From contig NZ_AP024322.1 of the NCBI RefSeq assembly GCF_018408855.1, positions 1,550,001-1,614,000 of the forward strand: a stretch of DNA of 64,000 bases. The letters run 5' to 3'. Numbering within the stretch: position 1 is the first letter of the stretch; each line of letters begins with the position of its first letter. Position numbers and translations under genes: made by a program. This DNA comes from Caballeronia sp. NK8 (lineage in GTDB: Bacteria > Pseudomonadota > Gammaproteobacteria > Burkholderiales > Burkholderiaceae). Under the pieces are notes generated by a model. It saw nothing but the letters and a program-made list of their open reading frames with translations. It made no database searches and was not told the DNA's origin. Positions 36,442 to 52,431 of this stretch are shown piece after piece.

Positions 36442-37683
36442 ATGGTAATTGCACGCAGTCTGCGCGCGCTCGACTGGCTGAATTTCTTTGTCGCCAACGT
36501 GCAGACCGGCTTCGGCCCTTTCATTGCTTCGTACCTCGCGGCCAACAAGTGGACGCAGGGCGAGATCGGCCTGATGCTTTCCGTCGGCACGATCAGCGCG
36601 ATGGCGAGCCAGTTGCCGGCAGGCGCGCTCGTCGACGCGATGCGCAACAAGAAGTTCGCCGCGCTCTCCGCGATCATCGCGATCATCGTGAGCGCGCTGC
36701 TGCTCGCCGCGAGCCCGACCTTCGTCCCGGTGTTCGCCGCCGAAGTGCTGCATGGCTTCGCGAGCTGCATGCTCGTCCCTGCGATGGCGGCGATCTCGCT
36801 CGCCCTCGTCTCACGCGCGGATCTCGGCGACCGGCTCGGCCGCAATGCGCGCTGGGCGTCGATCGGCAGCGCTTTGACGGCGGCGTTGATGGGTGCGTTC
36901 GGCGAGTATCTGTCGCTGCGCTCGGTGTTCTTTTTGACGGCCGCGCTTGCGTTGCCGGCGATCGTCGCGCTGCGCATGATTCATTACGATCTGGCGCCCG
37001 TGGTGCCGCGCGCGCCGCCGGGCAAGCCGAAGTTGACGCCCGAAGGTGAAGAGCGCGAATCCTTGCGCGAGTTGCTGAAGGACAGACGGCTTCTGATCTT
37101 TGCGGCGTGCGTGGTGCTCTTTCATCTCTCGAATGCGGCGATGCTCAATCTCGCCGCGGGCGAAGTCACTGCGCACATGGGCGACAACGTTCAACTCGTG
37201 ATTGCGGCGTGTATCATCGTGCCGCAGTTCATCGTTGCGGCGATGTCGCCGTGGGTCGGACGGCAGGCGCAGAAATGGGGGCGCAGGCCGGTGCTGATCC
37301 TCGGCTTTTGTGCGCTGCCGGTACGGGCGATTCTTTTTGCGGGCGTGAGCAGCCCTTACCTGCTCGTGCCGGTTCAGATGCTCGATGGCATCAGCGCGGC
37401 GGTGTTCGGTGTGATGCTGCCGCTCATCGCGGCGGATGTCGCGGGCGGCCGTGGGCATTACAACCTGACGATCGGATTTTTTGGACTTGCTGCGGGGGTG
37501 GGGGCTACGCTTTCCACAGCGGCGGCTGGGTTTGCCGCGGATCGCTTTGGCACTGCGATGAGCTTTTTCGGCCTCGCCGGGGCCGGGGCGCTTGCGGTGT
37601 TGATGGTGTGGCTGGCGATGCCGGAGACGCGGGGGGCGCATGGGGTGAAGGAGGAACCGGCTAAGCCGCCGGTGGAGGCTTGA
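36442..37683 (+). CDS. Major facilitator superfamily transporter
   Basis: A 413-residue protein with 12 predicted membrane helices. The segment QTGFGPFIASYLAANKWTQG near the start and the loop DRLGRNARWASIG resemble MFS proteins next to metabolic genes in Burkholderia. The substrate is unknown. The end is a Lys/Glu/Pro-rich tail (VKEEPAKPPVEA). It stops 22 bp before the palindromic repeat element at 37706. Confidence 0.88.
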   Translation: MVIARSLRALDWLNFFVANVQTGFGPFIASYLAANKWTQGEIGLMLSVGTISAMASQLPAGALVDAMRNKKFAALSAIIAIIVSALLLAASPTFVPVFAAEVLHGFASCMLVPAMAAISLALVSRADLGDRLGRNARWASIGSALTAALMGAFGEYLSLRSVFFLTAALALPAIVALRMIHYDLAPVVPRAPPGKPKLTPEGEERESLRELLKDRRLLIFAACVVLFHLSNAAMLNLAAGEVTAHMGDNVQLVIAACIIVPQFIVAAMSPWVGRQAQKWGRRPVLILGFCALPVRAILFAGVSSPYLLVPVQMLDGISAAVFGVMLPLIAADVAGGRGHYNLTIGFFGLAAGVGATLSTAAAGFAADRFGTAMSFFGLAGAGALAVLMVWLAMPETRGAHGVKEEPAKPPVEA

Positions 37684-37705
37684 TGGTTTTTTGTGTTGGG
37701 ATTTT

Positions 37706-38329
37706 GGGTTGATTAGGGTTACGTAGAATCCTGATTTCGTGTCGGTTTATTAGCACTGCCCCTGTGCGGGGCGGCAGTCACTTTCTTTGCTGCTGCAAAG
37801 AAAGTAACCAAAGAAAGCAGCTTTCCCCATCCAAAGTACTTCATGCCGGCCCCGGCACAGGCGAACAGTCTTGGCACAGCAGTAGCGAGTGCCCTCAAAG
37901 GCCAGACCGGGCTTGGACCGCGCACGGTCTGCCACATCGCGCCACAAAACAAACTGGTTCAGCACGAAATGGCTCCGGCCCGCTACGCGGCCGATGGGCT
38001 AATCGGGTCTGCGTGGGCTTCTGCGTTTCTCTTTTCTCGTCGGTTTCCCTTGCATACCCAACGGCAGCGCGTAGCGCTGTGCCGATGCTATTTCGTGCTG
38101 AACCAGCGCACTAGAAGAACTAGCTAGTCAGACCGTGCGCGGTCCACGCCCGGTTAGGCCTACGAGGGCACTCGCTACAGAGGCCACGAACAACGAGAAG
38201 AACACCCAAATTGCGTGTGACCGCGGGCGTCTCGAGCTGCTTTCTTTGGTTACTTTCTTTGCAGCAGCAAAGAAAGTGACTGCCGCCCCGCACAGGGGCA
38301 GTGCTAATAGACCGACACGAAACCGGGAT
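37706..38329. repeat. Giant imperfect palindrome, copy 1 of a dispersed repeat (~620 bp)
   Basis: The two halves of this stretch are reverse complements of each other over about 300 bp each. The ends (about 37728-37820 and 38240-38329) match almost perfectly, each carrying CACTGCCCCTGTGCGGGG and a local hairpin CTTTCTTTGC-TGCT-GCAAAGAAAG (37781-37804 and, with an AGCA loop, 38253-38276). Inner parts also pair, for example GCGAGTGCCCTC with GAGGGCACTCGC and TTCAGCACGAAAT with ATTTCGTGCTGAA. A second copy is at 49176-51087. It lies between convergent genes 22 bp after an MFS stop and is not protein coding by appearance. Confidence 0.9.
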
Positions 38330-38364
38330 CCAGCGACAACAACAACAAACCAACAACAACAACC

Positions 38365-39747
38365 TCACCTCAACGGCCTCAACCCCTCAAGCAAAGTCGG
38401 AATCAACTCACTCACTGTAGGATGAATATGCATAGCCCGCTGCAGCGTAGAAAACGGCGCATCCGCATTCATGCTATCGATGAAAGTATGAATCACCTCA
38501 TCCCCTTCAATGCCATAAATCGCCGCACCTAAAAACCGCATCGATTGCGCATCGACGAGCGCCTTCATGAACCCATCCGTCTCCCCGCGCTCCCGCGCGC
38601 GCCCCACGCGAGTCATCGGCATCGTTGCGATGAGCGCATCCCGTCCATCCTTGCGCACCTCCTCCTCGCTCATGCCCACCCGCGCAAACGGAGGATCGAC
38701 AAAAACCGCATAAGCCATGATGCGCGTATCGGCGCTGCGCGATTCCCCATCGAGCAGATTCGAAGCAATGATCTCGTAATCGTTCCACGACGTATGCGTA
38801 AACGCCCCGCGCCCGTTCACATCGCCCAGCGCATAGACGCCTTCGACACGAGTGCGCAACTGCCCGTCCACATCGATCATGCCGTGCCGGTTCACCGCGA
38901 TGCCCGCATGCTCCAGCCCCAGATCGTCGGTGTTCGGCGTGCGGCCCGTCGCGAACAGCAGATGCGATGCGTCGATCGTGTCAGCACCGCTCGATATGCG
39001 TACGCCTCCCGCCGACGGCTCCACGCGTTCGATCCGCGCCCCGAAGCGAAACTCGATGCCCTCGCGCACGAACACATCCTGCATCGCGCGCGCGACGTCC
39101 TCGTCCTCACGCGCCAGAATGCGATCGCCCCGCACGAGCAAGGTCACGCGACTGCCGAAGCGGCGGAACATCTGCCCGAATTCGAGCGCGATATAACTCG
39201 CCCCGACAATCACGAGATGCTCCGGCACCTCGGTCAGTTCCAGGATCGTCGAATTGGTCAGATACGGCACGCGCCCGAGCCCGTCGATCTCCGGCACCAC
39301 CGCGCGCGTGCCCGTGTTGATGAACACGAGATCGGCGTCGATGTCCTGCGTCGAGCCATCGCTCGCTTCGATCGAAAGCGCATGCGGCCCCGTGAAGCGT
39401 CCGTGCCCCTTGAACACGGTGAGGTTCTCCGTGCCGCGCAGCCACTTCTCGATACCCGTGCGCGAGCCGCCGATCACCTCGTCCTTGCGTGCCTTCACGC
39501 GCGCCATGTCGATGGTGATATCGCCGCCGATCATCACGCCGTATTGCGCCGCCGTGCGCGCGACATGCGCAGCCCGCGCGCTCGCAACATAGGTCTTGGT
39601 CGGCGTGCAGCCGACGTTCACGCAGGTGCCGCCAAACAGATGCCGCTCGATCACCGCCGTGCGCCTGCCGCTTTGCGCGAGCCGCACGGCAAGCGGCGAG
39701 CCGCCCTGCCCTGTGCCGATGACCACCGCATCGAAATGCTGTGACAT
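38365..39747 (-). CDS. FAD-dependent pyridine nucleotide-disulfide oxidoreductase (MerA/Lpd-like)
   Basis: The start at 39747 (MSQHFDAVVIGTGQGG) gives 460 residues. FAD-binding GTGQGG is near residue 11, and the redox disulfide is GGTCVNVGC (Cys42, Cys47). NAD-binding GASYIALEFG, FAD-binding GVYALGDVNG and the C-terminal HIHPTVSELIP (His-x-x-x-x-Glu dyad) are intact. It has no N-terminal MerP-like domain and no C-terminal Cys pair, so mercuric reductase activity is doubtful. It is probably a general disulfide or quinone reductase. It is divergent from the antiporter gene. Confidence 0.85.
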   Translation of the reverse strand: MSQHFDAVVIGTGQGGSPLAVRLAQSGRRTAVIERHLFGGTCVNVGCTPTKTYVASARAAHVARTAAQYGVMIGGDITIDMARVKARKDEVIGGSRTGIEKWLRGTENLTVFKGHGRFTGPHALSIEASDGSTQDIDADLVFINTGTRAVVPEIDGLGRVPYLTNSTILELTEVPEHLVIVGASYIALEFGQMFRRFGSRVTLLVRGDRILAREDEDVARAMQDVFVREGIEFRFGARIERVEPSAGGVRISSGADTIDASHLLFATGRTPNTDDLGLEHAGIAVNRHGMIDVDGQLRTRVEGVYALGDVNGRGAFTHTSWNDYEIIASNLLDGESRSADTRIMAYAVFVDPPFARVGMSEEEVRKDGRDALIATMPMTRVGRARERGETDGFMKALVDAQSMRFLGAAIYGIEGDEVIHTFIDSMNADAPFSTLQRAMHIHPTVSELIPTLLEGLRPLR

Positions 39748-39944
39748 GCTGGTTCTCCCCCGGCCGTATGCGCCGCCGACGCAACCGACCGTGCGAATGA
39801 AGCGGATGACGAATGAAGATGCCGCAACCGAATTGCATCTTACGCGCATGCAGATGAGCGGTCAGACGCCCTGCCCGACGCACGTCCAGCGGGCACGGGC
39901 ATGGCTCGTGCTGTCGATGAACGGTACACGAAACAAAGGCATTC

Positions 39945-48192: not shown

Positions 48193-49161
48193 TCAGCGCT
48201 TCAGGACTTCGCGATTGACGATGTTTGTCGTGAGCGTGCCGTCCAGTGCCCCGACGAGGTTTTCCGCGGCGTTGCGCGCCATCGCGTGACGCGTTTCGTG
48301 CGTGGCCGAGCCGATGTGCGGTAGTGCGACGACGTTGTTCATCGCGAGCAGCGGCGAATCGGCGGGCAGCGGTTCCTGTTCGAACACGTCGAGGCCGGCG
48401 CCGCGAATCGTGCCGTTCTTCAGCGCTTCGATGAGCGCGTGTTCATCGACGGTCGGTCCGCGCGATGCGTTGATCAGGATCGCGCTTCGCTTCATCTTCT
48501 TCAGTTCATTTGCGCCGATGAGTCCGCGCGTGTCGGGCGTCAGCGGCACTTGCAGGCACACGAAGTCGGATTGCGCGAGGAGTTCATCGAGTTCGACGCG
48601 TTTGGCGCCGTATTCCTTTTCTGCCTGCTCGTTTGCGCTGCGGTTCGTGTAGAGCACGTTCATGCGAAAGCCGAGCGCCGCACGGCGCGCGACCGCCCCG
48701 CCGATGCGCCCGAGCCCGACGATGCCGAGCGTCTTGCCTTGCACATCGACGCCGAATTGAGCCTCGCCGATGCTCGCCTTCCAGTTGTCTTGCTTCACCC
48801 ATTCGGCAAGTTCGACGACGCGGCGTGCGCTGGTGAGGATCAGCGAGAAGACGGTGTCGGCGGTGGATTCGGTTAGGACGTCGGGGGTGTGGGTGAGGAT
48901 GATGCCGCGGCGCGTCAGGTCCTCTACGTCGAACTGGTCGAAGCCTACTGAGATCGTCGACAGCGCTTTCAGGTCTTTTGCGCCTTCGATCATGGCGGGG
49001 GTGATCTTTATGCTCGCGCCGATGGCTCCGTTGGCTTGCTTCAGTGCCGCTATGAAGGCGGCTTCGTCTTTTGGATCGACGCTTTTCACCTCTGCGTGCT
49101 CGCGTAGGTAGGCTTCCACGTCGGAAGGTAGGGTTTTGTAGGCTACGATTTTGTGGGTCAT
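48193..49161 (-). CDS. kguD: 2-ketogluconate reductase / D-isomer-specific 2-hydroxyacid dehydrogenase
   Basis: The 322-residue enzyme has NAD(P)-binding GLGRIGGAVARR, an Arg in LINASRGPTVDEHALIE, and a His in ALPHIGSATHETRHAMA. It would reduce 2-ketogluconate 6-phosphate to 6-phosphogluconate. The position next to kguE, kguK, kguT and ptxS supports kguD over general glyoxylate reductase (ghrB). The start has no strong ribosome site, and the repeat element begins only 15 bp upstream, so its native promoter or leader has probably been separated from it. Confidence 0.85.
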   Translation of the reverse strand: MTHKIVAYKTLPSDVEAYLREHAEVKSVDPKDEAAFIAALKQANGAIGASIKITPAMIEGAKDLKALSTISVGFDQFDVEDLTRRGIILTHTPDVLTESTADTVFSLILTSARRVVELAEWVKQDNWKASIGEAQFGVDVQGKTLGIVGLGRIGGAVARRAALGFRMNVLYTNRSANEQAEKEYGAKRVELDELLAQSDFVCLQVPLTPDTRGLIGANELKKMKRSAILINASRGPTVDEHALIEALKNGTIRGAGLDVFEQEPLPADSPLLAMNNVVALPHIGSATHETRHAMARNAAENLVGALDGTLTTNIVNREVLKR

Positions 49162-49265
49162 TTTTGGATTGCTTCGGGTTGCTTAGGCTTTCGTAGAATC
49201 CTGATTTCGTGTTGGTCGGTTAGCACTGCCCCTGTGCGGGGCGGCAGTCACTTTCTTTGCTGCTG

Positions 49266-50547
49266 TGTATAGACCGGGGACATGGTTGACACTTTCGTCG
49301 GGGACATCGTTGACACTTTGATCATGGGGTATCGGGCTGGTTTGGGTCAAACGTCATGAGTCGGTGATGCGCGAAATAGAGGTCGTAGGCATCGGCAATC
49401 GTGCTGCTCGGTCGCGCCGCGATGTGCAGTCCGTGCAGTGCACTGGATACGCGCAAGCGGTGCTTTCCAAACGTTACCCTGCCGTTCCAGCCCACCAGCA
49501 GAACCTGATCATCCGGTCCGTATTCGAGCGGCGGCAGGCGGCTGGGCATCGCCCGCGCACTGGGCCGATAGCGCGTGATCGGCGTCGCCATGCCGATGCC
49601 CGCGTGCGGGCGCTCAAAGTTGTAGCTTTGGCGCCAGCGGTCGAATTCAGCCTGCACCTGATCGGGCCCGGTGAAGCTGCGGTGATTCAGCACCTCGGCC
49701 TTGAGCGAGCGATGAAAGCGCTCGTCCTTGCCGTTGGTCTGCGGGTGATAGGGACGGCTATGGCTCATACGAATACCCAGCCGAATGCATCGGATGGCCA
49801 ACTCGGTCAATTCGCCAGGCTTGCTTGGCGTGCCCCACGGCGCGCCGTTATCGGCGTTGATCTGTTGCGGCAGCCCGTAACAGGCGAAAGCGTTTCGCAG
49901 GTGCGTGTACACCGTCTCGGTGTCCTGGCTGCAGCACGCCTGCAGCACGAGGTTGAAGCGCGAATGATCGTCGAGCACGGTGAGCGGGTGGCAGCGCCTT
50001 TGATCGAGCATGCCGAAGTGGCCCTTGAAATCGATTTGCCACAGCTCGTTAGGCTCGGCGCGCTCGAAACGGGTCCAGGCGGTGGCCGCGTCCGAAGCCT
50101 TCTCGCCGATGCATCCATGGCGCTGCAAAATGGCATTGACCGTGCTGTGCGAAGGCACGCCTTGCAGGCCTTGATCCTTCAGGCGCCGGCTGATCTTGTG
50201 CGCGCTCCAGGCCGGATGCTGGCTTCGCACCTCCAGCACCCGCGCTTCGAGTTCGTCACAGGTTCGATTCGGGCTGCTGTGCGGACGTCTGGAGAGATCG
50301 CCCAGCGCCTCGCGGCCCCCGGCCTGATAGCGGTTGACCCACTTGTATCCGGTCTGCCGGCTGATGCCAAAGCGTTGGCACAGCTCGTTGAAAGCAATCT
50401 CTTGTTGCATGGCCAGGGTCACGAATTCAAGGCGAAGTTGCATGGTGTCCTGCGGGTTCCAAGGCATGGTCGGGTCCGGGCATCGAGATGCCCGAAAGTG
50501 TCAACCATGTCCCCGCGGATCTGTCAGCTATGTCCCCGGTCTATACA
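49266..50547. mobile_element. Complete IS481-family insertion sequence, 1282 bp, with target duplication
   Basis: The ends are imperfect inverted repeats starting TGTATAGACCGGGGACAT on both sides. They extend inward about 50 bp with repeated GGGGACAT and GTTGACACTT words. It is flanked by the 6-bp direct repeat CTGCTG (49260-49265 and 50548-50553). Removing the IS and one repeat restores the hairpin found intact in copy 1. It therefore transposed into the palindromic element, inside a hairpin loop. It encodes one transposase. Confidence 0.92.
49322..50467 (-). CDS. IS481-family transposase
   Basis: A full-length 381-residue transposase. An N-terminal helix-turn-helix (ELCQRFGISRQTGYKWVNRY) and a second helical domain are followed by the rve integrase core. 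The DDE triad is visible as Asp in LWQIDFKGHFG, Asp in INADNGAPWG and Glu in NGKDERFHRSL. No frameshift or stop is seen, so it may be active. It is read on the minus strand within the IS. Confidence 0.93.
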   Translation of the reverse strand: MPWNPQDTMQLRLEFVTLAMQQEIAFNELCQRFGISRQTGYKWVNRYQAGGREALGDLSRRPHSSPNRTCDELEARVLEVRSQHPAWSAHKISRRLKDQGLQGVPSHSTVNAILQRHGCIGEKASDAATAWTRFERAEPNELWQIDFKGHFGMLDQRRCHPLTVLDDHSRFNLVLQACCSQDTETVYTHLRNAFACYGLPQQINADNGAPWGTPSKPGELTELAIRCIRLGIRMSHSRPYHPQTNGKDERFHRSLKAEVLNHRSFTGPDQVQAEFDRWRQSYNFERPHAGIGMATPITRYRPSARAMPSRLPPLEYGPDDQVLLVGWNGRVTFGKHRLRVSSALHGLHIAARPSSTIADAYDLYFAHHRLMTFDPNQPDTP

Positions 50548-51105
50548 CTGCTGCAAAGAAAGTAACCAAAGAAAGCAGCTCGAGACGCCCGCGGTCACAC
50601 GCAATTTGGGTATCCTTCTCCTCACCCGTGGCCTCTGTAGCGAGTGCCCTCACAGGCCACATCCGGCTTGGACCGCGCACGGTCTGCCACATCGCGCCGC
50701 GTGCGTGGCTGGTTCAGCACCTAATGGCTCCGGCCCGCTGCGCGGCCGACCGGTCCATCGGGACTGCGCGTGCTTCTGCGTTTCTCTTTTCTCGTTGGTT
50801 TCCCTTACATACCCAACGGCAGCGCGTAGCGCTGTGCCGAAGCTATTTCGTGCTGAACCAGCGCGCACAAAACGACTAGCTTGTCAGACCGTGCGCGGTC
50901 CAAGCCCGGTTAGGCCTGCGAGGGCACTCGCTACTGAGGCCACGAGCAAGGAGAAGAATGCCCAAATTGCGTATGACCGCGGGCGTCTCAAGCTGCTTTC
51001 TTTGCCTACTTTCTTTGCAGCAGCAAAGAAAGTAGGTGCCGCCCCGCACAGGGGCAACGCTAACCGACCAACAAGCTATCGGGATCCGGCGAGAAGAAAC
51101 AAAAA

Positions 51106-52386
51106 TCAAGACCGCACAACCACCCCAGCCCCCACCGCACCCTGCGGCCTAACCGCCAAAGTAAGCCACACAGCCAGCAACAACGCCACACTCATGAACA
51201 CGTAAGAGGCAGCCGGCGACCCCGTCGCCCCATTCAGATAGCCAACAAAATACGACCCGACGAACGAGCCCAGCGCCCCCATGCTATTGATGAGCGCCAT
51301 CGCCCCACCCGCGACATTCTTCGGCAAAAGCTCCGGCACGATCGCAAAGAACGGCCCATACGGCGCATACATCGCCGCCCCCGCAATGACGAGCAGCGTA
51401 TAGGAAGCCCAGAAGTTCGTCGAGCCGAGCAGATACGATCCCGCGAACGCGACCGCGCCGATCAGCAGGAACGGCCATACGAATGCCTTGCGCGCCTGCA
51501 GCTTGTCCGACGCCCACGACGCCAGCAGCATCGCGATGGTCGCGGCAAGATACGGCACCGCCGACAACCAGCCCGTCTCGACCATCCCGAGCGTCGAGCC
51601 GTTCTTCAGAATCGACGGCAGCCACAGCACGAAACCATACACGCCGATGCTCCAGCAGAAATACTGCGCGCACAGCTTGATCACCGCCGGCGACTTGAAT
51701 GCCTCGCGATAGTTCTTCACCGGCTTGATCGCGGCCTGTTCGGCGCGCAGGGTCGCATCGAGATCGTTCTTCTCCTGGTCCGTCAGCCACGTCACCTGCG
51801 CGGGCTTGTCCTTAACGATGAACCACCAGATCACCGCCCACACGACCGCCGGCAAACCTTCCGCGATGAACATGTGACGCCAGCCGAACGAATTCACCAG
51901 ATAACCCGAAACGACCGACATCCACAGCACCGTCACCGGATTGCCGAGAATCAGGAACGTATTGGCACGCGATCGCTCGGATTTGGTGAACCAGTTCGCG
52001 ATGAAGACGAGCATCGCCGGCATCACCGCGGCCTCGACGACGCCGAGCACGAAGCGGATCGCCATTAACGACGGAATGTTGCTCACCATGCCCGTGAGCG
52101 TCGCGCACCCGCCCCACAGGACCAGGCTCCAGAACACGAGCTTCTTCACGCTGCGGCGCTCGGCATAGATCGCGCCGGGAATCTGAAAGAAGAAGTAACC
52201 GAGGAAGAACAGCGCGCCGATCAGCGACGACAAGCCCTTGCTGATGCCGAGATCGTGATTGATGCCCGCGGCTGCGGCGAAGCCGTAGTTGGCGCGGTCG
52301 AGATACGCGAGGCTGTACGTGATGAAAACGATCGGCATGATCGCCCACCAGCGGCGCGCCGCAAGCTTGGGAGTCGTAGATTGCAT
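51106..52386 (-). CDS. kguT: 2-ketogluconate transporter, MFS
   Basis: The start MQSTTPKLAARRWWAIMP (52386, GGAG 6 nt upstream) gives 426 residues with 12 membrane helices. It is of the anion:cation symporter type (AYLDRANYGFAAAAGINHDLGISKG, shown as AYLDRANYGFAAAAG and NHDLGISKG; FLGYFFFQIPGAIYAERRS). The KguT assignment comes from the kguE-kguK-kguT order. It imports 2-ketogluconate. The IS-bearing palindrome starts 19 bp after its stop, cutting it from kguD. Confidence 0.87.
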   Translation of the reverse strand: MQSTTPKLAARRWWAIMPIVFITYSLAYLDRANYGFAAAAGINHDLGISKGLSSLIGALFFLGYFFFQIPGAIYAERRSVKKLVFWSLVLWGGCATLTGMVSNIPSLMAIRFVLGVVEAAVMPAMLVFIANWFTKSERSRANTFLILGNPVTVLWMSVVSGYLVNSFGWRHMFIAEGLPAVVWAVIWWFIVKDKPAQVTWLTDQEKNDLDATLRAEQAAIKPVKNYREAFKSPAVIKLCAQYFCWSIGVYGFVLWLPSILKNGSTLGMVETGWLSAVPYLAATIAMLLASWASDKLQARKAFVWPFLLIGAVAFAGSYLLGSTNFWASYTLLVIAGAAMYAPYGPFFAIVPELLPKNVAGGAMALINSMGALGSFVGSYFVGYLNGATGSPAASYVFMSVALLLAVWLTLAVRPQGAVGAGVVVRS

Positions 52387-52431
52387 GGTTGTCTCCGAAC
52401 GCAATTCGGTTGAGTCTTTCGGTTGCTGGCT

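Follow-up and report, generated by a model that had tools for sequence, protein, structure and literature searches.

The 64,000-nucleotide stretch of Caballeronia sp. NK8 DNA analysed here (the window) carries two copies of a palindromic element of about 620 bp that recurs throughout the genome. The element is real, abundant and structured. Our preferred reading is that of a lineage-specific, outsized REP/BIME-like repeat, in which a chain of hairpins forms an imperfect palindrome of ~600 bp that lies mostly just behind stop codons and that is old, bound to its slots and homogenised by recombination. We put the probability of this reading slightly above even (about 0.53).

Architecture of the element

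Copy 1 (37719..38338, 620 bp) sits between convergent genes. The stop codon of a plus-strand MFS transporter gene (36442..37683) ends 35 nt before it, and that of a minus-strand gene for a pyridine nucleotide-disulphide oxidoreductase (38365..39849) lies 26 nt past it. The first-pass annotation described this region as a giant imperfect palindrome, and three pairs of inverted arms can indeed be located in it: outer arms of 119 nt (37704-37822 and 38235-38353, 88%), inner arms of 50 nt (37882-37931 and 38129-38178, both assigned to the plus strand, 90%) and innermost arms of 26 nt (37954-37979 and 38081-38106, 88%). The whole is a set of nested hairpins within one palindrome, running from the ends through hairpin A (GCCCC-TGTGC-GGGGC), hairpin B (ACTTTCTTTGCTGCTGCAAAGAAAGT) and the inner arms to an asymmetric central loop. 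On the left, the arm core (37758..37788, minus strand) consists of half of hairpin B followed by hairpin A, and hairpin B occupies 37777..37808 (plus strand), which in other copies is the landing site of insertion sequences. On the right, hairpin B is at 38249..38280 and the arm core at 38269..38299 (both plus strand).

A very long RNA stem had been anticipated for this region. As RNA, 37706-38353 has a predicted folding energy of -414 kcal/mol, far below the mean of 20 dinucleotide shuffles (-226 kcal/mol, sd 7.8; z = -24). A protein-coding reading was rejected: the element shows no coding sign, and the 116-aa ORF within it is without a Pfam match.

Copies, ends and core across the genome

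The genome holds at least 55 such palindromes, spread over five of its seven contigs, so the description of the element as dispersed stands. They were recognised as facing pairs of arm motifs in regions gathered by means of the core motif, with three mismatches at most; 47 are intact and the other 8 are interrupted by an insertion of more than 1 kb, and four single unpaired arm motifs occur in the same regions. The arm motif itself is found 57 times in forward and 54 times in reverse orientation, and because the 55 copies derive from part of these occurrences, their number is a minimum. BLAST against the same genome, made without reference to the core, gives at least 40 distinct copies, mostly matched on both strands (40 of 87 candidates scored). 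Copies lacking the palindrome were to have spoken against the first-pass annotation; 39 of these 40 carry the core in both arms and belong to the 55. Intact copies measure 521-563 bp across their arm cores (40 of the 47 fall within 537-545 bp), or ~620 bp including the ends.

Pooling of the 110 arm ends reveals a conserved edge ~39 nt outside the GCCCC motif, which corresponds to 37719 and 38338 in copy 1. Both sides share one consensus, TTTCGCCGGATCCCG, in inverted orientation and with variants in individual copies. Conservation drops at one position, beyond which there is a composition bias only: A content is 6% over the 22 nt outside the edge, on gene-3' and gene-5' sides alike, compared with 21% after stop codons (29 stop codons within the window). 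Likeness between the two arms is 0.95 in the outer core and falls to 0.55-0.6 in an inner segment, a conservation of the core that is partly by construction because the 55 copies were gathered with that motif.

Position relative to genes

The copies are intergenic, as had been suggested from the two in the window. Among 54 classified copies, the flanking genes are convergent in 26, tandem in 28 and divergent in none, compared with 9, 36 and 8, respectively, among 53 pairs of adjacent genes in the window, a small background that itself includes two copies of the element (P of zero divergent = 1.5e-4; Fisher P for convergent = 9e-4). These calls cover all copies except C2_925685 and were made with a codon-score ORF finder whose training set was 14 genes of the window. 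In the one plasmid record of eight that is annotated at its copy, convergent genes flank the element, and the ORF finder had called the left side otherwise. Measured from ~6 nt inside the element edge, the median gap is 28 nt to gene 3' ends (80 sides) and 78 nt to 5' ends (29 sides). The 3' bias could be due merely to selection against insertions elsewhere.

Terminator-like sites are not in excess at the copies (one found, 1.0 expected). On a single strand, T and G prevail in the tract preceding the element and A and C in the one following it, which is the opposite of an intrinsic terminator. No promoter-like site was found in the element.

Copy 2 and insertion sequences at hairpin B

The second copy, first placed at 49176-51087, is the same element with corrected bounds (49189..51094), and it owes its length of 1.9 kb to an IS481-like element inserted in its left hairpin. 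This insert (49266..50547, 1,282 bp) lies within hairpin B and encodes a minus-strand transposase (49322..50467; rve and LZ_Tnp_IS481 in Pfam). Its PF13011 and rve domains, its ends (TGTATAGACC/GGTCTATACA) and a 6-bp target duplication, CTGCTG on either side (49260-49265 and 50548-50553), all agree with IS481. Copy 2 is flanked by tandem minus-strand genes, so that one side faces a stop codon and the other a start codon. The first-pass annotation gave gene edges 15-36 bp away for both copies; copy 2 is intergenic, with gaps of 11 nt to the stop codon of an MFS transporter gene (51106..52404) and 27 nt to the ATG of a D-2-hydroxyacid dehydrogenase gene (48193..49161). Given this short distance upstream of the ATG (window 49161-49189), the split copy may affect expression of the dehydrogenase gene.

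The genome yielded five long matches to this IS481-like insert (40 of 87 candidates scored), and every one lies inside a palindromic element and joins it in hairpin B. Three of them are near-identical; the other two are 76% and 64% alike, which makes three or more distinct IS481-like members that picked the same site. A Mutator-family transposase, which we take to be IS256-like, is inserted in hairpin B too, and an HTH_38/rve transposase, presumably IS30-like, is inserted twice directly beside it; one hairpin thus has three transposase types in or adjoining it. REP-targeting insertion sequences (IS1397, IS621 and ISPpu9) likewise insert repeatedly at a single position within a palindromic repeat, whereas the transposases here are IS481-like, Mutator-family and HTH_38/rve. 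Insertion sequences within REPs are known, and the searched portion of a 2006 paper on them names IS3, IS110, IS4, IS256 and IS5, with IS481 absent (PMC1525189). Hairpin B could serve as a safe landing site for insertion sequences. In two relatives, a further insert starting CAACTGTATTGA follows hairpin B of the element at the slot of copy 1.

Distribution in relatives and shared slots

Matches to the element occur in 27 of 41 genomes, including its own. Within the genus, 12 of 25 genomes have a strong match (best E < 1e-70) and the rest weak, short ones; two genomes of other families also have weak, short matches only. In a family-wide draw the arm motif is present in 25 of 150 genomes and 3 of 25 genera, and in an order-wide draw in 3 of 300 genomes. 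Thirteen plasmid records have a match (Paraburkholderia 8, Caballeronia 4, Burkholderia 1), on replicons of 0.9-2.6 Mb. Seven of eight plasmid copies show one long inverted self-match, and the eighth yields an arm of 365 bp. A phage origin was rejected, as a phage collection contained no match to the element. At four loci in relatives, draft contigs terminate in or near elements, and copy numbers from short-read assemblies are therefore likely undercounts.

Many slots are shared between species. Of 14 full copies compared in the closest relative, 12 are at slots that also carry a copy here (split here in two cases); at the slots of the other two, this genome has palindromes of ~90 and 30 bp whose ends are those of the element. 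This comparison runs from the relative to the present genome, and the reverse direction was viewed at single slots. Element orientation is conserved in 9 of 10 comparable orthologous pairs.

At the slot of copy 1, we compared 30 loci (our own and 29 from relatives), part of them readable across the slot. The readable relatives have long elements, elements split by insertion sequences, ~90-bp palindromes, palindromes of another kind or hardly any intergenic DNA. At five congener loci the slot is occupied by other palindromic repeats (GGCATTCAGAATGC-like, or TTTTGCATGC...GCATGCAAAA), as if some hairpin were favoured there. Two more slots were inspected over 260 nt per side, with 14 readable relatives each. 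The first has a long form in eight (one at a contig edge), a long form split by an insertion sequence in one, short forms of 88, 65 and 28 bp in three, a remnant in one and nothing in one. The second has a long form in 11 (one at a contig edge) and, in one relative each, a 66-bp form, a doubled end at a contig edge and nothing recognisable. One relative (L167) is without the element at two slots.

In a tree of 15 genomes at one locus, the short forms of these two slots are single tips that are sisters to genomes with a long form. Regrowth of short forms was considered and set aside, as collapse alone explains this tree. The slots would be old, and the short forms would have arisen by repeated collapse. 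Other configurations suggest that arms may grow by duplication besides collapsing: among relatives, L252 has a concentric copy, its first ends enclosed by a second set, L253 has a doubled end on one side, and in L256, from another genus, the arms are doubled in tandem. The mirrored spacer of L252 hints at possible copying between arms in that genome. The downstream flank of L256 carries a run of many CCAAAA units beside the doubled palindrome.

Similarity between copies and between arms

In multiple alignment, the elements of ten orthologous pairs are on average 0.814 identical, although their flanks are ~93-98% identical. Copies within a genome are 0.852 identical here and 0.853 in the closest relative; between the two genomes the average is 0.806, and about 0.81 for non-matched copies. 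The orthologue ranks first among the 47 copies in one of ten cases and second in two. The nearest match of the relative's 14 copies is in its own genome for ten and in this genome for four, one of which is the orthologue. The excess of within-genome likeness depends on the measure. In pairwise alignment with gaps counted, orthologues are 0.797 identical, paralogues 0.844 and 0.838, and other cross pairs 0.778, with the orthologue first in two of ten; with gaps ignored, orthologues (0.880) and paralogues (0.879 and 0.870) are equal. Orthologues are no closer than paralogues under either measure, as expected of concerted evolution. These comparisons support, indirectly, the upkeep of the copies by recombination, and the copies would be kept alike through recombination or gene conversion and not through ongoing transposition. 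Homogenisation of arms was considered for one genome (G311) but found no support; the arms of one copy there are about as close to other copies as to each other.

Compensatory changes across the stem, which the first-pass annotation had proposed to look for, did not appear among the 47 of 55 copies compared in this genome, the 8 split copies being excluded. Left arms resemble their own right arms (0.769) no more than those of other copies (0.7707), and 8035 of 10000 permutations reach or exceed the observed likeness. Nor does exchanging arms between copies weaken the predicted fold (-438.5 kcal/mol for 20 native and -439.8 kcal/mol for 60 swapped pairs). Pairing is thus a property of the family as a whole and is not kept by compensatory change in this genome.

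Comparison with known repeats and other explanations

Like REP/BIME repeats of the GTAG and CGTC families, the element is a dispersed intergenic palindrome near stop codons and a target of insertion sequences. According to the consulted part of PMC3733652, REPs are found near stop codons where the neighbouring genes are convergent or unidirectional, a location that the copies share (26/28/0 of 54), and part of PMC1590033 gives a similar location for stem-loops in general. The REP unit measures 20-40 bp, compared with ~600 bp for the element (short forms of 28-90 bp exist), and the element in its entirety is one palindrome. The unpaired GTAG/CGTC end tag of REPs is absent, both ends having the consensus given above. 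As for a cognate Y1 (RAYT) transposase, the genome has one PF01797 match, and its 3.3-kb locus is without the element core. These differences in size, tag and transposase count against the REP/BIME-like reading, as do the chance level of terminator sites, the lack of compensatory change and the location of copy 2 directly before a start codon as well. A literature search that left subscription papers mostly outside found no paper on the element in Caballeronia or Paraburkholderia among the titles listed, and term searches in the accessible text of PMC12306157, PMC1525189, PMC3733652 and PMC1590033 returned no mention of Burkholderia.

Several other explanations have to be weighed. The element may be a neutral or selfish repeat without function, its old insertions tolerated only behind genes and its copies kept alike by recombination, a serious but doubtful alternative. 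Such a repeat would fit arms that do not co-vary, the two empty slots of one relative and the patchy spread within the family. Long palindromes should be unstable in bacteria, yet long forms persist in most relatives at the two slots viewed; the retention of the core in both arms of nearly all BLAST-scored copies, and an outer core far more alike between arms than the inner segment (partly by construction), also argue against a functionless repeat.

We consider it rather unlikely that the element is a transposase-free repeat at fixed slots behind genes whose palindromes repeatedly collapse to short hairpins with unchanged ends, while copying from other copies in the genome keeps them alike and may even regrow them, so that spread and persistence would proceed via hairpin recombination and not transposition.

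MITEs such as Correia/NEMIS, and foldback elements, are non-coding, have inverted ends and reach high copy numbers. A MITE-like nature had been proposed in the first-pass annotation. In that case a transposase that leaves no duplication would have moved the element, or duplications would have decayed, and its position behind genes would reflect selection against other insertions. Its high copy number on most contigs, the single consensus of its inverted ends, which MITEs also have, and the concentric and half-doubled copies in relatives speak for a transposon. No target-site duplication is apparent in the 55 copies, however: the longest direct repeat at the ends averages 2.58 nt, no longer than with shuffled partners (2.68 nt, sd 0.06). 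All 14 full copies compared in the nearest relative match slots with some form here, and slots in relatives are full, short or without an element, instead of forming clean filled and empty pairs. Unlike MITEs and foldback elements, this one has slots shared between species and contents homogenised within genomes. No element core lies near the PF01797 gene, the sole transposase family sought as a partner. We regard a transposon as unlikely.

A source of double-stranded RNA, or cruciform DNA acting on replication or recombination, would suit the very stable predicted fold; we judge it improbable, since native arms fold no better than exchanged ones and the location at 3' ends would demand another reason.

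It is very improbable that the element is a family of small-RNA genes (Rfam RF02421, Bp1_684) with transcripts acting in trans: the two outer arms score 38.0 and 33.9 bits against the model (the arm with hairpin A aligning to positions 1-113), and a Burkholderia pseudomallei candidate was validated by RT-PCR with a suggested trans-acting role according to part of PMC3521395, but the scores are below the 44-bit gathering cut-off, there is no promoter-like site, and copies behind many different genes would better fit co-transcription. RF02421 models one arm, as a presumed small RNA; a term search found the word "repeat" absent from the main text of the source paper (PMC3521395).

Possible role and significance

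For the preferred reading of a REP/BIME-like repeat, we infer a role at mRNA 3' ends. Transcripts entering from either side would first form hairpins A and B and afterwards the long stem, a structure that could block or trim the 3' end of the mRNA, for example as an exonuclease barrier or an RNase III substrate. The folded element may in this way insulate neighbouring genes.

The matches to RF02421 raise the question of whether what this Rfam model treats as a small RNA is one arm of a repeat. This lineage maintains dozens of ~600-bp palindromes, many at the same places in a related species, despite their expected instability. If our reading is true, the element would offer a natural system in which to study the collapse of palindromes, the concerted evolution of non-coding repeats and the choice of harmless hairpin targets by insertion sequences.
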